Part shown: in pieces, positions 56,574 through 64,000 of the stretch | Layout: every line of letters begins with the position of its first letter | Position numbering within the stretch: position 1 is the stretch's first letter | Source: Phenylobacterium montanum | Lineage (GTDB): Bacteria; Pseudomonadota; Alphaproteobacteria; Caulobacterales; Caulobacteraceae | Reading direction: 5' to 3' | DNA length: 64,000 nucleotides | Assembly (NCBI RefSeq): GCF_018135625.1 | Contig: NZ_CP073078.1 | Coordinates: 4,372,501 to 4,436,500, forward strand | Made by a program: the position numbers and the translations under genes | The notes under the pieces: generated by a model | Seen by the model: the letters and a program-made list of their open reading frames with translations, nothing else | Told to the model about the DNA's origin: nothing | Databases searched by the model: none

Positions 56574-56680
56574 CACGATCGCGTGCGTCATCCTGCGGTC
56601 GGTTGACTTTGCCGTGGCTTCCACTCCTAGTTTCACTCGCGTTCGTCGGGTGAAGCTTGGTTCTCGAAGGGGGGGCCGAG

Positions 56681-59323
56681 ATGAGTGGACCGGTCAGCGA
56701 ATTTCCCGAACTGATCCCGGAAGGGCTCTCGTCGTTTGAGGCGGTCCCGCCCGGCGAGGCCGAGGCGATAGCCATCATCGCCCAGCTGGCCGAGCAGCGT
56801 GTGCGCGCGGCGGCGGCCAGCAATCCGCCGGCCCGGCGCGACGCCCACGCCAAGATGCACGGCTGCGTGGAGGCCGAGCTGAAGGTGCTGGAGGGCCTGC
56901 CGCCGACCCTGGCCAAGGGACTGTTCGCCAAGTCGGCGACCTATTCGGCCTGGGTGCGCTTCTCCAACGGTTCGGCCACGCCGGGCGCGGACAAGGCCGG
57001 CGACGGGCGGGGCATGGCGATCAAGGTCCTGGGGGTGAGCGAAAGCCGCTCCGGCGTCCAGGATTTCGTGATGATCAACCATCCGGCGTTCTTCATCCGC
57101 AACGCCGCCGAGTACGTCGATTTTTCGCGGGCGCCCGATCCCTTCAAGTTCTTCGTCCCGGACCTCAATCCCCTGCACATCCACCTGCACGACATGCTGG
57201 GGGCGCTGGCGATCGCCGCCCAGAAGGTCTCCAACCCGCTGAACAGCCAGTACTGGAGCATGACGCCGTACCTCTATGGCGACGGCCCCTGCAAGTTCTC
57301 GGCGCGGCCGGTGGGGCCGGCCTCGCTGTTCGAGGACCGCACCGGCGACGACTTCCTGCGCGAAAACCTGGTCAGGGCGCTGGACGCCGGCGATGCGGCA
57401 TTCGACTTCTGTATCCAGCTGCGCACCCGCCCCGACCACATGCCGGTCGAGGACCCGACCATCGAGTGGCCCGAGGCCGACCAGCTGTTCGTCCCGGTCG
57501 CCCGCCTGACCATTCCGCGCCAGGGCTTCGACACGCCCGAGCGGCGAGCGTTCGGCGAGAACCTGTCCTTCACCCCCTGGCACGGCCTGGACGCACACCG
57601 ACCGCTGGGCGGCATCAACCGGGTGCGGCGCACCGTCTACGAGACCATTTCGCGCGTGCGGCACGAGCTGAACGGGACCCAGCGCGCCGAACCCACGGCC
57701 CTGACGCCGCTGCTTGCGCCGGACGCGCCGCCACCCCCCGCGACGGAGCCAACAATGGCCAACAGCTTCTTCGACGACCTGGCCGTCCTGGTGGGCGATG
57801 CGATCGACGACGACAACTGGGCCGAGGCCGAGGCCTCCAAGGCGGTGATCAACGGTCTGGTCAATTGCACCACGAACCGGCCGCATCCGTGGAGCACGGC
57901 TTCTGACTACACCTCGTGGAAGGCCCTCAGCGACCGCACCTGGCAGGGCCGCCAGCTGCCGGTCTCGACCCGCGATCCGGCCAGCCTGCCGCCGCTGGAG
58001 ACCGTGGCCAAGATCTTCGTGCGCCAGGGCGGGGCGCAACTGCTGTCGCCGAAATCGACCTGCCTCTTTCCCGCCTTCGCCCAGTATCTGACCGACGGCT
58101 TCATCCGCACCGGCGTTCCCGGACAGCCCGACACCCCGGAGACCCGCCGGCGCACCTCGTCCAACCACGAGATCGACCTCTGCACTCTCTACGGCCGCAC
58201 CGAGGCCCAGACCGATATCCTGCGGCTGAAGGACGAGACCGCCGGCCGCCGCGGTCGACTGAAAAGCCAGGTGCTGAAGGGCGAGGAACTGCCGCCCTTC
58301 CTCTACATCGATGGCGGAACGCAGGTTGACCCGCAGTTCGAGGGCCTGGATCCGCCGCTCTGGGGGCCGACCCACCAGCCGCCGCCGCCCGAGCGCCTGG
58401 CCTCGCTGTTCGCCTGCGGCGGCGACCGGGTCAACGTCACCCCGTTCGCAGCGATGATGAACACCCTGTTCCTGCGCGAGCACAACCGCGTCGCCGGACA
58501 GCTCGACCAGCAGCATCCCGACTGGGACGACGAGCGGGTGTTCCAGACCGCCCGCAACATCATGATCCCGCTGTTCATCAAGATCGTGGTCGAGCACTAC
58601 ATCAACCACATCACCCCGATGCCTTTCAATCTGGTCGCCGACCCCTCGGTGGCCTGGGACGCCAAGTGGAACCGGCCGAACTGGATCACCGCCGAGTTCA
58701 GCCTGCTCTATCGCTGGCATTCGCTGATGCCGGACGAGATCCAGTGGCACGGCCAGGCGATCCCGCTCTTGAACTTCACCCTCGACAACCGGCCGCTACT
58801 GGCTTCGGGCCTTGCGGCCGCCTTCACCTCGGCCTCGGCCCAGCCGGCGGGCGAACTCGGCGCCCTGAACACCAGCGACTCCCTCCTGATCGTCGAGGAG
58901 CTGGCCGTGCAGCAGGCCCGCACCAACCGCCTGGCCAGCTACAACGACTATCGCCAGCAGTACGGCATGCCGCGGGCGACCACCTTCGAGGAGATCAGCA
59001 GCCATCCGGACATCGTCCGCGCCCTGATCGCCGCCTACGAGACGCCGGACGACGTGGAGTTCTACCCCGGACTGTTCGCCGAAGACCGGGTCGCCAAGTC
59101 GCCCCTGCCGGGCTTGCTGTTGAAAATGGTCGGGGTGGACGCCTTCTCGCAGGCCCTGACCAATCCGCTGCTATCGGAGCACGTGTTCAACGCCGCGACC
59201 TTCACCGAGTGGGGTTTCGACCTGATCAAGAACACCCACACCCTGGGCCAGGTGCTGGAGCGGAACGCCCCCGGCGTGGTGGCGGAGGACATCGTCATGA
59301 CGCAGAAGACCTGGCGGTACTGA
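56681..59323 (+). CDS. Catalase-related / cyclooxygenase-like haem peroxidase fusion
   Basis: 880-residue two-domain haemoprotein. Residues ~40-335 are a catalase-related domain as in coral allene oxide synthase: distal His56 (DAHAKMHG), Asn133 (FVMINHPAFF) and proximal Tyr320 with Arg316 (RVRRTVYE). From ~365 to the end it aligns with animal prostaglandin H synthase: LREHNRV, FQTAR, IKIVVEHYI, EFSLLYRWHSLMPDE, YGMPRATTFEE, FYPGL, GFDLIKNT. Tyr677 and His680 correspond to catalytic Tyr385 and proximal His388. Distal Gln203 is kept (Gln468), but the His207 position is Asp472. There is no signal peptide, no EGF module and no obvious membrane-binding helices. It is predicted to oxygenate a fatty acid and convert the hydroperoxide; the substrate is unknown. 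ATG 56681 follows GGGGGG. Confidence 0.88.
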   Translation: MSGPVSEFPELIPEGLSSFEAVPPGEAEAIAIIAQLAEQRVRAAAASNPPARRDAHAKMHGCVEAELKVLEGLPPTLAKGLFAKSATYSAWVRFSNGSATPGADKAGDGRGMAIKVLGVSESRSGVQDFVMINHPAFFIRNAAEYVDFSRAPDPFKFFVPDLNPLHIHLHDMLGALAIAAQKVSNPLNSQYWSMTPYLYGDGPCKFSARPVGPASLFEDRTGDDFLRENLVRALDAGDAAFDFCIQLRTRPDHMPVEDPTIEWPEADQLFVPVARLTIPRQGFDTPERRAFGENLSFTPWHGLDAHRPLGGINRVRRTVYETISRVRHELNGTQRAEPTALTPLLAPDAPPPPATEPTMANSFFDDLAVLVGDAIDDDNWAEAEASKAVINGLVNCTTNRPHPWSTASDYTSWKALSDRTWQGRQLPVSTRDPASLPPLETVAKIFVRQGGAQLLSPKSTCLFPAFAQYLTDGFIRTGVPGQPDTPETRRRTSSNHEIDLCTLYGRTEAQTDILRLKDETAGRRGRLKSQVLKGEELPPFLYIDGGTQVDPQFEGLDPPLWGPTHQPPPPERLASLFACGGDRVNVTPFAAMMNTLFLREHNRVAGQLDQQHPDWDDERVFQTARNIMIPLFIKIVVEHYINHITPMPFNLVADPSVAWDAKWNRPNWITAEFSLLYRWHSLMPDEIQWHGQAIPLLNFTLDNRPLLASGLAAAFTSASAQPAGELGALNTSDSLLIVEELAVQQARTNRLASYNDYRQQYGMPRATTFEEISSHPDIVRALIAAYETPDDVEFYPGLFAEDRVAKSPLPGLLLKMVGVDAFSQALTNPLLSEHVFNAATFTEWGFDLIKNTHTLGQVLERNAPGVVAEDIVMTQKTWRY

Positions 59324-59337
59324 AGGCGAGGGGAGGC

Positions 59338-60837
59338 TCAATCCTCCGCCGCGGCCAGCCTCATGGACCCCGGTTGCGGCTGAGGAACCTCGCGCCGCCC
59401 GCTGACCTCTGCGCCCGCATCGCTCGGAAGGGTCAGGAAGAAAAACAGGCCCAACAGGGTGGCCGCGCCCACGATCAGGAAGGTCGGGGAAACGTCGGCG
59501 GCCTGCAGGCGGGCCGAGTGGTGCGCCTGCCGGATGCCGGCCAGCAGCAGGGCGGCCAGGCCGATGCCGAGGCTCTGCGACAGCTGCTGGGCCATGGACG
59601 AGAAGCTGGAGGCGCGGCTCATGCGCGGCTGGTCGATGTCGGCGAAGGCCAGTGTGTTCAGGGCGGTGAACTGCAGCGAGCGGAAGAAACCGCCGAACAG
59701 GAGGACCCCGACCATCAGGAAGTATGGCGTCGAGGCGCGGAACAGGGCGTAGCTCATGAAGGTGACGGCCACGATCAGGGTGTTGGCGACAAGCACAGTG
59801 CGAAAGCCGAACCAACGGATGATCGGCCGCGCCGTGGTCTTCATCACCAGGGCCGCGGCGGCGCTGGTGAAGGTGATCAGGCCGGCCTGGAAGGCGCTGT
59901 AGCCGAAGCCCAGTTGCAGCAGGAGGGCCAGCAGGAAGGGCGAGGCGCCCATGGCCATGCGCAGGAAGGCGCCGCCCACCAGCGAGGTCATGAAGGTCCT
60001 GACCTTCAGCAGGGATGGGTCCAGGATCGGATGGTCGATGCGGCGGGCGTGCAGGGCGAAGAGGACGATGCAGAGCGCGCCGCCGCCGATCAGCCCGGCC
60101 ACCGCGCCGGCGGGCAGGCCGCCCCGGCCCAGGTTGTCGAAACCATAGACCAGGCCGGCGAAGCCGAAACCGGTCAGGACGAAGCCCAGCCAGTCGAGCG
60201 GTGGCGGATCCTCTTCCTTGATGGCGGGAATGAACAGGCTGACCAGCACAAGGCCGAGGACGCCCATGGGCAGGTTGATGAAGAAGATCCAGCGCCAGGA
60301 CCAGTGGGTGACGATGAAGCCGCCGATCGGCGGGCCGATCACCGGGCCCAGCATGGCCGGCATGGTCAGGTAGCTCATCGCCCTGACGAGCTCGGACTTG
60401 GGGGTCGAGCGCAGCAGGACCAGACGGCCGACCGGCGTCATCATCGCTCCGGCCGCGCCCTGCAGCATCCGGGCGGCCACCAGCTCGGGCAGGGTCTGGG
60501 CCAGGCCGCAGAGCAGGGAGGAGAGGGCGAAGCCGGCGATGGCGATGCGAAAGATCAGCTTGGCCCCGAAGCGGTCGGCGACCCAGCTGGAGATCGGCAG
60601 GAACACAGCCGAGGCCAAAAGGTAGGCGGTGATGGCCAGGTTCAGGGTCAGGGGATCTTCGTGCAGCGACCGGGCCATGGTCGGCAGGGCGTTGGTGATG
60701 ACGGTGGAGTCCAGCGTCTGCATGAACAGGGCGCTGCCGATGATCATCGGCGCCAGGCGCCCGACCGGCGCAACGGGCGCCTCGGTCTCCAGGGCGACCT
60801 GGTCGAGCGCCTTGGGCTCGGCGGTCATCCGGTTCAT
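59338..60837 (-). CDS. MFS drug:H+ antiporter, DHA2 (EmrB/QacA) family
   Basis: 499-residue 14-helix inner-membrane exporter. Motif A SWVADRFGAKLIFRIAIAGF and motif C-like AMLGPVIGPPIGGFIVTHWSWRWIFFINLP are clear; the latter is typical of EmrB-type proteins. The start ATG at 60837 overlaps the MarR stop by 4 nt, so both are translated from one transcript. No EmrA-type adaptor gene is adjacent. It is convergent with the catalase/COX gene, 14 nt apart. Confidence 0.93.
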   Translation of the reverse strand: MNRMTAEPKALDQVALETEAPVAPVGRLAPMIIGSALFMQTLDSTVITNALPTMARSLHEDPLTLNLAITAYLLASAVFLPISSWVADRFGAKLIFRIAIAGFALSSLLCGLAQTLPELVAARMLQGAAGAMMTPVGRLVLLRSTPKSELVRAMSYLTMPAMLGPVIGPPIGGFIVTHWSWRWIFFINLPMGVLGLVLVSLFIPAIKEEDPPPLDWLGFVLTGFGFAGLVYGFDNLGRGGLPAGAVAGLIGGGALCIVLFALHARRIDHPILDPSLLKVRTFMTSLVGGAFLRMAMGASPFLLALLLQLGFGYSAFQAGLITFTSAAAALVMKTTARPIIRWFGFRTVLVANTLIVAVTFMSYALFRASTPYFLMVGVLLFGGFFRSLQFTALNTLAFADIDQPRMSRASSFSSMAQQLSQSLGIGLAALLLAGIRQAHHSARLQAADVSPTFLIVGAATLLGLFFFLTLPSDAGAEVSGRREVPQPQPGSMRLAAAED

Positions 60838-61292
60838 GGGCGCTCTCCGGCCAGGAGGGCCAGGGGGGCGATGGCGGCCGCAAGCGCCTCGCGCGCCTCG
60901 GGCGGCAGTTTGGCCAATTCCTGGGCCAGCCAGTCGTTGCGCCGGCGGCGGACGGCGTCCAGGGCCTTGGCCCCCTTGGCCGTCAGGTTGAGGCCGACGC
61001 GCCGGCGATCTTCCGCGTCGGGCTCCAGGCGGGCGACATAGCCGGCCGCCTCCAGGCGCTTGACGTGGGCGCTCATGGTCGGCCGGCTCATCTGTTCGCG
61101 GTCGGCGAGTTCGGAGACGCCGATCCCTTCCACCTTGCGGATGGCGCCCAGGATCATGGCGTCGAGCGGCGACAGGCCGAGGGACTGGGATTGCTGGCGC
61201 AGCCGGCGGCTCAGCCGCAGCAGGGCCGGCCGCAGGGCCTCGGCCAGGGCCGCGACCTCCGCCGGGGAGGGAGACTGGGCGGATGCGTTCAT
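60834..61292 (-). CDS. MarR family transcriptional regulator
   Basis: 152-residue repressor. The winged helix is visible as LSPLDAMILGAIRKVEGIGV, then SELADREQMSRPTMSAHVKR and YVARLEPDAEDRRRVGLNLT (the wing with Asp-x-Arg-Arg). The ATG at 61292 is preferred; an ATG 36 nt upstream would put the operator inside the coding region. It is cotranscribed with the downstream MFS gene and probably represses it in the absence of a ligand. Confidence 0.93.
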   Translation of the reverse strand: MNASAQSPSPAEVAALAEALRPALLRLSRRLRQQSQSLGLSPLDAMILGAIRKVEGIGVSELADREQMSRPTMSAHVKRLEAAGYVARLEPDAEDRRRVGLNLTAKGAKALDAVRRRRNDWLAQELAKLPPEAREALAAAIAPLALLAGERP

Positions 61293-61298
61293 GCGCGG

Positions 61299-61319
61299 AT
61301 AGTTAGGTCGCCTAACTAT
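61299..61319. promoter_or_regulatory. Perfect 21-bp palindromic MarR operator
   Basis: ATAGTTAGG and CCTAACTAT are exact inverted 9-bp arms around TCG. The palindrome ends seven bases before the marR ATG. TTGAAC on the minus strand (61328-61323) could be the -35 with the -10 inside the palindrome, the classical place for autorepression. Confidence 0.78.
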
Positions 61320-61373
61320 CTTGTTCAAGGGGCGTGGTGTCGCATCCAGCGCGCAGGGCGACGGGAGGAAAGT

Positions 61374-64000
61374 CTACAGCCGGTCGTCGGGAGCCGGGAC
61401 GGGCGGGGCTTCGCGGGGGGTGACGAAGCGGGCCAGGCGGGGCGTCAGCCAGTGCTCGAAATCGTCGATCATCTCGTAGACCACCGGCACCATGACCAGG
61501 GACAGCACGGTCGAGGTCATCAGGCCGCCGATCACCGCCACGGCCATGGGCTGGCGGAATTCCGAGCCCTTGCCGATGGCGAGCGCGGTCGGCGCCATGC
61601 CTGCGGCCATGGCCATGGTGGTCATGATGATCGGGCGGGCGCGCTCGCGGCACGCCTCCATGATCGCCTCGCGCTGGGGCATGCCCTCACGCTCGCGCTC
61701 GATGGCGTATTCGACCAGCAGGATCGAGTTCTTGGCCGCCAGGCCCAGGAGCATCAAGAGGCCGATCAGCGAGGGAATGCTGACCGATTCATGCATGACC
61801 AGGAGGCCCATGAAGGCGCCGCCGATCGCCAGGGGCAGGGCCGACAGGATGGTGATCGGCTTGAAGAAGCTGCGGAAGAGCAGGACCAGCACCGCATAGA
61901 TCATGGAAATGCCGGTCAGGAAGGCCAGGCCCAGCTGGCCGAACAGCTCCATGAACTGCTGGGTCTGGCCGAGGGTTTCCCGCTGCACGCCCGCAGGCAG
62001 GTGCTTCATGATTGGCAGCTTGCCCACCTCCTTCACCCCCTGGCCCAGCTGGGCGCCGCCGGCCAGGTCGGCGTCGATGGCGATGAAGCGTTCGCGGTCG
62101 TAGCGGTAGATCTTGGCCGGGCCGGACTGAAAATCCACGTCGGCCACACTGGATAACGGCGTGGTCCCGCCGCTGGCGGTGGGCAGCTGCAGGTCGCGGA
62201 TCAGCTGGATGTTGGCCCGGTCGGCCTTGGGCAGGCGGATGCGGATCGGGATGCGCCGTTCGCCGTCGGTCAGCTTGGAGACATTGGCGTCGATGTCACC
62301 CACCGTGGCGATGCGCGCGGCGGCGGCGATCGCCTGCGAGGTCACGCCGACGCGTGCGGCTTCGTCCAGCCGTGGCCGGATGGCGATCTCGGGGCCGGTG
62401 GGTGGGTGGGCCGGCCGGGGATCGGCCAGGGTGTGCAGGGTGCGCATCTGACGCTCCAACTCGTCCCCGGCGCGGGCCAGGGCTTCGCCGTTCTGGCTGG
62501 CCAGGATCACCTGCACGTCGGCCGAGCCGAAGCCGCCGCCCTGGAAATTGACCCGGGCGTCGGGGATCGACTTCAGGCTGTCGCGCACCCGGTCCTGGAT
62601 CTGGGTCACCGAAAGGCTGCGCTTGTCCTTCAAGACCCAGGTGGTGGTGCCGCTGGTGACGTCGCCCGAGGCGCCGCCGCCGAAACCCTCGCCGGCGGTC
62701 GAGCCGATCTGGGTGAACACCATCGAGGTTTCGGGCTGCTTCTTCAAAAGCGCCGTCACCTCGCGCGAGACCCGCTCCATGTCGGCGGTGGTCGAGCCCG
62801 GCGGCCCTTGCAGACTGACGAAGATGAAGTTGGGGTTGCCCGGCGGCTGCACCCCGGTGGGCAGCAGCACATTGAGGCCCAGGGATAGGATAAAGATCAC
62901 CCCGCCGGTCAAAGCGGTGACGATCCGGTGCGACAAGGCCCAGTCGAGGGCGCGCTGGTAGACCGGGTTCATCGGCGGCCGCGGGTGCGGATCGGCCGTG
63001 GGCTTGAGGAAATAGGCGGCCAGGAGCGGCGTCAGAAGGCGCGCCACCAGCAGCGAGAACAGCACCGCGACGGCCACGGTGATGCCGAACTCGCGGAAGA
63101 ATTGGCCCGGGATGCTGCCCATGAACGATACCGGCGCGAACACCACCACCACCGTCGCAGTGGTGGCGACGACGGCGAGGCCGATCTGGTCGGCGCCCTC
63201 CATGGCCGCACGATAGGGCCGGGCGCCGGTGAGGACGCGCTTCTGGATATTCTCGATCTCGACGATGGCGTCGTCGACCAGGATGCCGATGACCAGGGTC
63301 AGGGCCAGCAGGGTGACCACGTTCAGGCTGAAGTGCAGCAGGGCCATGACCAAGAAGGTCGGCACCAGCGAGACGGGCATGGCGATGGCGGTGATCAGGG
63401 TCGAGCGCCAGTCGCGCAGGAACAGGAACACCACGATCGAGGCCAGAAGCATGCCCTCCAGCAGGGTGTCCATGGTGGCGTGGAAGCTGGCGCGGGTGTC
63501 GTCGACGCTGGAGATCAGCTTGGTGAACTTCACCTCGGGATGCTCTTTGCCGAGCTTGTCCAGGGCCTTGATCACCCCGTCCTCGACCCGCACGTCGCTG
63601 GCTTCATTGGTCTTGAGGACCTGGAAGCCGATCACCGGCTTGTCGTCCAGCCGGGCGAATCCGCGGATCTCACCCTCGCCGTCGCCGACGTCGGCCACGT
63701 CCGACAGCTTGACGAACTGGCCGCCGACCGTGGGGATGGTCAGCTCGCGCAGGGCCGCGACGGTGGTCGCTGCGCCCAGCACGCGGATGGTCTGCTCGCG
63801 TCCGCCGATATTGGCCCGGCCGCCGGAGGAATCGACGTCGAAACTGGCGAGGGCGGTGTTGAGGGCGGCTGCGGTCAGGCCTCTCGCCGCCATGCGGTCG
63901 GGATCGATGATGACGTTGATCTCGCGGTCGACGCCGCCGACGCGGGAGATCTGGGCCACGCCCTGCTGCTGCTGCAAGGCGCGCGAGACTGTATCGTCGA
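61374..64000 (-). CDS. RND efflux pump inner-membrane subunit (HAE1/AcrB type), partial
   Basis: The C-terminal 875 codons of a proton-driven tripartite multidrug pump; the frame stays open across the right edge (DTVSRALQQQQGVAQ at the boundary), so the N-terminus lies outside. It contains the periplasmic pore-domain pieces INVIIDPDRMAARGLTAAAL, the TM4 double-Asp GILVDDAIVEIENIQKRVLTG, PVSFMGSIPGQFFREFGITV and the second-half TM10 region. The missing start is a window effect, not truncation. Any adaptor gene would lie further right, outside the window. Confidence 0.95.
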   Translation of the reverse strand, partial: DDTVSRALQQQQGVAQISRVGGVDREINVIIDPDRMAARGLTAAALNTALASFDVDSSGGRANIGGREQTIRVLGAATTVAALRELTIPTVGGQFVKLSDVADVGDGEGEIRGFARLDDKPVIGFQVLKTNEASDVRVEDGVIKALDKLGKEHPEVKFTKLISSVDDTRASFHATMDTLLEGMLLASIVVFLFLRDWRSTLITAIAMPVSLVPTFLVMALLHFSLNVVTLLALTLVIGILVDDAIVEIENIQKRVLTGARPYRAAMEGADQIGLAVVATTATVVVVFAPVSFMGSIPGQFFREFGITVAVAVLFSLLVARLLTPLLAAYFLKPTADPHPRPPMNPVYQRALDWALSHRIVTALTGGVIFILSLGLNVLLPTGVQPPGNPNFIFVSLQGPPGSTTADMERVSREVTALLKKQPETSMVFTQIGSTAGEGFGGGASGDVTSGTTTWVLKDKRSLSVTQIQDRVRDSLKSIPDARVNFQGGGFGSADVQVILASQNGEALARAGDELERQMRTLHTLADPRPAHPPTGPEIAIRPRLDEAARVGVTSQAIAAAARIATVGDIDANVSKLTDGERRIPIRIRLPKADRANIQLIRDLQLPTASGGTTPLSSVADVDFQSGPAKIYRYDRERFIAIDADLAGGAQLGQGVKEVGKLPIMKHLPAGVQRETLGQTQQFMELFGQLGLAFLTGISMIYAVLVLLFRSFFKPITILSALPLAIGGAFMGLLVMHESVSIPSLIGLLMLLGLAAKNSILLVEYAIEREREGMPQREAIMEACRERARPIIMTTMAMAAGMAPTALAIGKGSEFRQPMAVAVIGGLMTSTVLSLVMVPVVYEMIDDFEHWLTPRLARFVTPREAPPVPAPDDRL

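Follow-up and report, generated by a model that had tools for sequence, protein, structure and literature searches.

Whether a single bacterial polypeptide carries both a fatty-acid dioxygenase and another haem enzyme acting on the hydroperoxide formed, and which products it would then make, is the question raised by one open reading frame of Phenylobacterium montanum (assembly GCF_018135625.1, contig NZ_CP073078.1). It lies in the 64,000-nucleotide stretch analysed here (positions 4,372,501 to 4,436,500 of the forward strand; "the window"). A first-pass annotation, made from the sequence alone, had described it as a fusion of a catalase-related protein with a cyclooxygenase (COX) and proposed a two-step oxylipin synthase giving prostaglandin-like or allene-oxide products. 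The fusion in one ORF was confirmed by the reading frame itself, Pfam, PDB matches and AlphaFold2, and the gene and its parts are listed in Table 1.

Table 1. Features of the fused gene (positions within the window).
Feature	Position	Strand	Basis
Fused catalase-related/COX-like dioxygenase gene, 880 aa counted from the ATG at 56681	56681..59323	+	ORF, Pfam, AlphaFold2
Purine-rich, ribosome-site-like stretch (AAGGGGGG) ahead of the ATG at 56681	56667..56683	+	sequence
N-terminal catalase-related domain, residues 1-335 (about 20-335)	56681..57685	+	sequence match, structure model
Pro-rich linker, residues 336-371	57686..57793	+	pLDDT, selection analysis
GGAG, 6 nt, ATG (Met359, 57755): putative relic ribosome site or working internal start	57745..57757	+	sequence
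C-terminal COX-fold domain, predicted fatty-acid dioxygenase, residues about 364/372-880	57794..59320	+	PDB match, profile, structure model

The covalent fusion is a real feature of P. montanum. A sequencing error or missed stop was ruled out, because the same fusion occurs in two further genomes (74-76% and about 67% identity) and the source genome is assembled in 2 contigs. The whole-protein AlphaFold2 model had a mean pLDDT of 89.4, with values below 50 in the linker (342-360), and a pTM of 0.63; how the two domains are placed towards each other cannot be read from it. The input alignment consisted of 54 rows, plasmid-record rows being left out, and the single catalase-related rows had their C-terminal ends misplaced in it (the N-terminal domain was therefore refolded separately). 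Structure prediction recovered a COX fold for the C-terminal domain and a catalase-related fold for the N-terminal one.

The match of the C-terminal domain to prostaglandin H synthases, as first annotated, was borne out. Pfam places an animal haem peroxidase domain at residues 492-865 (E 4.9e-46), and phmmer against the PDB returned prostaglandin G/H synthases 1 and 2 over residues 400-864 (best E 2.8e-52), the best solved-structure matches to this domain (28-30% identity); its model superimposes on COX-1/2 with Z of 42-44 (1.8-2.3 A, about 478 residues). The family profile reached COX-2 with an E of 2.6e-97, and the far weaker values for alpha-dioxygenases (about 1e-28) and myelo-/lactoperoxidases (about 1e-19) ruled these out as nearest kin. 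With COX at 1e-97 against about 1e-19 for myelo-/lactoperoxidases, the domain does not group with the peroxidasins, a grouping that had been named as counting against an oxylipin role. The catalytic Tyr, proximal His and central Tyr of COX (385, 388 and 348) are all kept, as Tyr677, His680 (the annotated Tyr385/His388 block) and Tyr640, together with Trp387 (Trp679). Several other COX positions are changed: the distal His207 is Asp472 and Ser530 is Ala821 (both points absent from the first-pass annotation), Val291 is Arg583, Gly526 is Val817, and the Arg120 position is Leu in the profile alignment. All 100 family rows agree with the window protein at Tyr677, His680, Tyr640, Asp472 and Ala821; the Val291 site is Arg in 94 of them, and the Tyr504 site is Tyr, like Tyr795 of the window protein, in 63. 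COX-1/2 thus share with the window protein the fold, the catalytic Tyr and the proximal His, but their distal His, Ser530, Arg120 and EGF domain are missing here.

The replaced residues point to another member of the fold. In the linoleate 10S-dioxygenase (10S-DOX) of Nostoc punctiforme, a 2026 review of linoleate dioxygenases (PMC13049297) describes a YIxxITP central motif, an F-t-d-s-F helix in which the site of the distal His is altered, Val291 replaced by a conserved Arg, a terminal GxDAFxQA and Ala for Ser530. In the window protein, YINHITP (640-646) fits YIxxITP (Ile306, Thr310), TDGF with Asp472 fits the TDxF helix, and VGVDAFSQA with Ala821 fits GxDAFxQA (Ala487), with Val instead of Ile483. 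The Phe of 10S-DOX at the Tyr504 site is absent, Tyr795 standing there instead; this site is variable across the family and was not treated as defining. Most of the published 10S-DOX motifs are therefore found, and it is by these motifs that the domain is placed beside 10S-DOX. Judged from its residues, it is predicted not to be a prostaglandin synthase: because His207 and Ser530 are replaced, the Arg120 site is Leu and the substrate site is lined like that of a 10S-dioxygenase, the prostaglandin-like products first proposed find no support.

The N-terminal domain had been likened to coral allene oxide synthase (AOS), with distal His, Asn and an RxxxY proximal tyrosine, and all of these were recovered. 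Its Pfam Catalase match (residues 53-151, E 1.6e-8, over the gathering score) covers only positions 45-140 of the 383 of PF00199, and a monofunctional catalase was rejected on this partial match and on size (about 335 aa). Among PDB sequences the mycobacterial MAP-2744c (3e4w) came first, followed by true catalases and coral AOS (1u5u); MAP-2744c resembles the domain in size and fold, but it is a stand-alone protein and only 21% identical. Folded alone, the domain gave a pLDDT of 92.1 and a pTM of 0.91, and coral AOS 1u5u was the top structural match (Z 28.2, 3.0 A, 285 residues; catalases about 26). The catalase core fold typical of the coral AOS and hydroperoxide lyase (cAOS/cHPL), about 300-370 aa in length, is thus present. 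Catalases carry Val immediately before the distal His. The haem residues described for coral AOS, R64, R102, R360, H67, N137 and Y353 (PMC5617202), are all kept as Arg53, Arg93, Arg327, His56, Asn133 and Tyr320, the last of which closes the RxxxY motif (Arg316-Tyr320) and is the predicted haem ligand. Thr66 of coral AOS, beside the distal His, is Ala55 in the window protein and its dioxygenase-linked clade; bacterial members are not known to need a Thr there. These residues do not distinguish between lyase, synthase and catalase chemistry, because residue 55 is neither the Thr of coral AOS nor the Val of catalases. Catalase-related domains were also found fused to LodA_N/LodA_C (amino-acid oxidase) at L010 (minus strand), L137, L138, L139, L143 and L028 (three of these loci checked by Pfam), with Phe in place of the distal His, and the fold is for this reason not always tied to lipid chemistry.

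The closest characterised precedent is in N. punctiforme, in which, according to three sources (PMC13049297, PMC9410191, PMC9579011; citing Brash et al. 2014), a COX-like linoleate/oleate 10S-dioxygenase (B2J5P4) is accompanied by a catalase-related protein from a separate gene, a lyase that converts the 10S-hydroperoxide to 1-octen-3-ol. This pair shares with the window protein both families, Asp at His207, Arg at Val291, Ala at Ser530 and YIxxITP; it differs in being encoded by two genes, whereas a single alphaproteobacterial polypeptide is found here, and in its Phe at the Tyr504 position (Tyr in the window). Two reviews disagree on the cyanobacterial system: it is termed a "fusion protein" in one of 2024 (PMC11719350), while that of 2026 (PMC13049297) speaks of a "separate gene". 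In the open-licence literature, no earlier description of a true fusion was found, apart from this loose labelling of the Nostoc pair; the pairing itself is already known, and what is new is its covalent fusion in alphaproteobacteria. The coral AOS-LOX and HPL-LOX and the cyanobacterial catalase-LOX fusions (1u5u, 3dy5) have the same order, an N-terminal catalase-fold hydroperoxide enzyme and a C-terminal dioxygenase, but their dioxygenase is a non-haem lipoxygenase (LOX) instead of a haem COX-fold enzyme. The fungal DOX-CYP proteins (linoleate diol synthases, Ppo) likewise join a COX-fold dioxygenase to another haem enzyme by which the hydroperoxide is converted, although this partner is a C-terminal P450 and not an N-terminal catalase fold.

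We consider it somewhat probable (roughly 55%), from residues and by analogy, that the polypeptide is a covalent fusion of the N. punctiforme type of 10S-dioxygenase and 10S-hydroperoxide lyase. The core of the earlier proposal, a dioxygenase and a catalase-fold hydroperoxide enzyme on one chain, is well supported by fold, active-site residues, gene pairing and characterised precedent, and its prostaglandin part is not; the activity of each domain, and with it substrate, regiochemistry and cleavage, we infer from the same comparisons. In the first step, a haem-generated Tyr677 radical of the C-terminal domain would attack oleate or linoleate (C18 unsaturated fatty acids) at an allylic or bis-allylic hydrogen and remove it, and O2 would be added most likely at C10 to give a 10S-hydroperoxide. 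Linoleate would have to be available in the cell, whose genome has two genes of the fatty-acid desaturase family. In the second step, the Tyr320-ligated haem of the N-terminal domain, with distal His56 and Asn133, would transform this hydroperoxide, most likely by lyase cleavage, so that linoleate would yield 10-oxo-8-decenoate and C8 alcohols such as 1-octen-3-ol. Co-products of the lyase reaction are 10-oxo-8-decenoate and 2-octen-1-ol. Some of these product details belong to the account of the mushroom pathway in the 2024 review (PMC11719350). The lyase is preferred because just one catalase-related partner of a COX-like dioxygenase has been characterised and this one is a hydroperoxide lyase, and the products are probably molecules of the mushroom-alcohol type rather than prostaglandins. 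More tentatively, COX-type O2 insertion might be channelled to the catalase-fold domain to give a product other than that of Nostoc, with free dioxygenase made in addition from an internal start.

The readings that compete for the N-terminal domain differ in the fate of the peroxide. It may be an allene oxide synthase or another isomerase (giving epoxyalcohol, bicyclobutane or ketol) acting on a different hydroperoxide regioisomer, which is possible though on balance unlikely: coral AOS tops the structural matches of the isolated domain, a few substitutions turn the coral lyase into an AOS (PMC5617202), and cyanobacterial catalase-LOX fusions give varied products (PMC11719350), but the Z margin of coral AOS over catalases is small and the sole catalase-related partner characterised for a COX-like dioxygenase cleaves the hydroperoxide. 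The allene-oxide products first suggested are conceivable. It is rather doubtful that the domain merely scavenges peroxide, or adjusts the peroxide tone by which Tyr677 is primed, with no specific oxylipin formed. Relatives fused to LodA-type, H2O2-producing oxidases would suit this role, as would an Ala before the distal His, unlike the Thr of coral AOS, and a source genome with no other PF00199 catalase; yet the LodA-fused copies have lost the distal His while the window copy keeps all distal residues, KatG is available for H2O2, the domain is far below true catalase length, and its linkage to the dioxygenase is specific and phylogenetically coupled.

Two further readings concern the C-terminal domain. 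A peroxidase of non-lipid substrates, or some other non-oxylipin role, agrees with Pfam names and neighbouring efflux genes that specify no lipid function, but is improbable given that none of the 100 relatives retains the distal His on which efficient peroxidase chemistry depends and that similarity to lacto- and myeloperoxidases is far weaker than to COX. A true cyclooxygenase producing prostaglandin-like endoperoxides has in its favour the closeness to COX-1/2 in identity and structure, and is nevertheless highly improbable, as it is opposed by the replacements at His207 (Asp), Ser530 (Ala), Gly526 (Val) and Arg120 (Leu in the profile alignment), and by the lack of an EGF domain; to our knowledge, arachidonate is not to be expected in such bacteria. 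The fusion of a 10S-dioxygenase with a hydroperoxide lyase thus remains the preferred reading.

When 84,980 species genomes were scanned with the profile of the dioxygenase, 446 relatives came up; the 79 best loci among them were read, and further fusions may be present in the others. Among these 79, fusions like that in the window were found in a Caulobacteraceae MAG (L041) and in Methylorubrum rhodesianum DSM 5687 (L045), whereas in two Phenylobacterium MAGs (L042, L043), a Rhizobium MAG (L047) and Ensifer (L116) a separate catalase-related gene lies directly upstream of the dioxygenase; one more locus (L044) is cut by the contig end, with two frames offset. Two-gene adjacency holds for at least six relatives, and a catalase-related gene lies within about 4 kb in seven further loci; most of the best 79 of 446 have none. 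In plasmid records, the two genes follow each other with a 4-nt overlap in Paracoccus yeei (catalase-related gene first), and linked pairs are also present in Methylobacterium currus (in reverse order) and Ruegeria. The linkage is far above chance, because, of 385 genomes sampled from the class, just 20 have a catalase-related gene: about 14 of the best 79 of 446 loci show it within a few kb, against a rough expectation of about 0.01 (some of the loci are not independent of each other). In Ensifer sp. LC11 (L116:1607-3712), the catalase-related domain continues in frame for ~350 aa of what looks like a second, divergent catalase-type domain, and the dioxygenase gene comes after the two.

The fused gene is a patchy accessory gene. 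In a family survey of 390 genomes, two were fused and two more had a single TGA; the gene is absent from four other genomes of the genus, although the neighbouring MFS/MarR genes are kept in three of these. The genes around it (response regulator, MFS pump, MarR, RND pump) give no specific hint of its function, and no promoter match was found in the operon context of the gene. The cluster of MFS pump, MarR regulator and RND permease (59338-63998, minus strand) is conserved in the genus both beside the fused gene and in genomes without it, which fits a mobile accessory gene.

The relatives also suggest an origin for the fusion. Both genes of L042 and L043 share one reading frame, interrupted by a single TGA, and the ATG of the dioxygenase lies seven codons downstream of it; Met359 of the window protein occupies the position of the dioxygenase start codon of the two-gene relatives, and a ribosome-site-like stretch with a start codon is kept there in L041 (AAGGAGG...GTG) and L045 (GGGAGG...ATG) as well. 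The fused state thus differs from the split one by the loss of one stop, and a stop codon lost between two adjacent genes would have produced it. With the old start codon and ribosome site retained, translation from Met359 may also yield free dioxygenase. In the dioxygenase tree, the window protein and L041 (99) fall within a six-row clade (SH-aLRT 96) of fused or adjacent pairs only, and L045 groups with L044, L042 and L043 (94); the fusion therefore arose twice or was reversed once. The catalase-related tree contains a matching seven-row clade (97), every row of which is linked to a dioxygenase. Between the window protein and L041, both domains are under purifying selection (dN/dS 0.18/0.66 and 0.18/0.69), which is weaker in the linker (dN/dS about 0.68).

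Dioxygenases and hydroperoxide enzymes have been joined at least twice before, as LOX with a catalase fold and as COX-like enzyme with P450. COX-type with a catalase fold is the remaining combination and, if the assignment is true, a third fusion architecture, seen here together with relatives whose two genes are still divided by one stop codon. It would extend COX-type oxylipin pathways from cyanobacteria to plant- and soil-associated alphaproteobacteria, and a single recombinant protein could serve for testing substrate channelling and possibly for making 1-octen-3-ol.

Other arrangements of the family were observed as well. On plasmids of Sinorhizobium medicae and Rhizobium etli (IE4771), a P450 adjoins or overlaps the COX-like dioxygenase (L036:3592-6509, L186:1601-4503), a two-gene counterpart of the fungal DOX-P450 fusions. 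As P450 is the other known class of hydroperoxide-processing partner, this neighbour supports, by analogy, a family whose hydroperoxide would be handed to a second haem enzyme. In IMG/VR contigs (L122:3932-5620; also L120, L121 and L123-L127), a COX-like dioxygenase about 35% identical to the window domain, with Asp at the His207 site, is located among phage tail genes (tail terminator, minor tail and tape-measure families); it had no match among 50,697 sequenced phages, and a phage-borne fatty-acid dioxygenase would be unusual. RoxA-like dihaem proteins adjoin catalase-related genes at L034:3028-5858 and L040:3899-8885, in NGR234 with a patatin-like lipase beside the pair, and may belong, broadly, to one type with the dihaem 10S-DOX of P. 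aeruginosa (PMC4496055).
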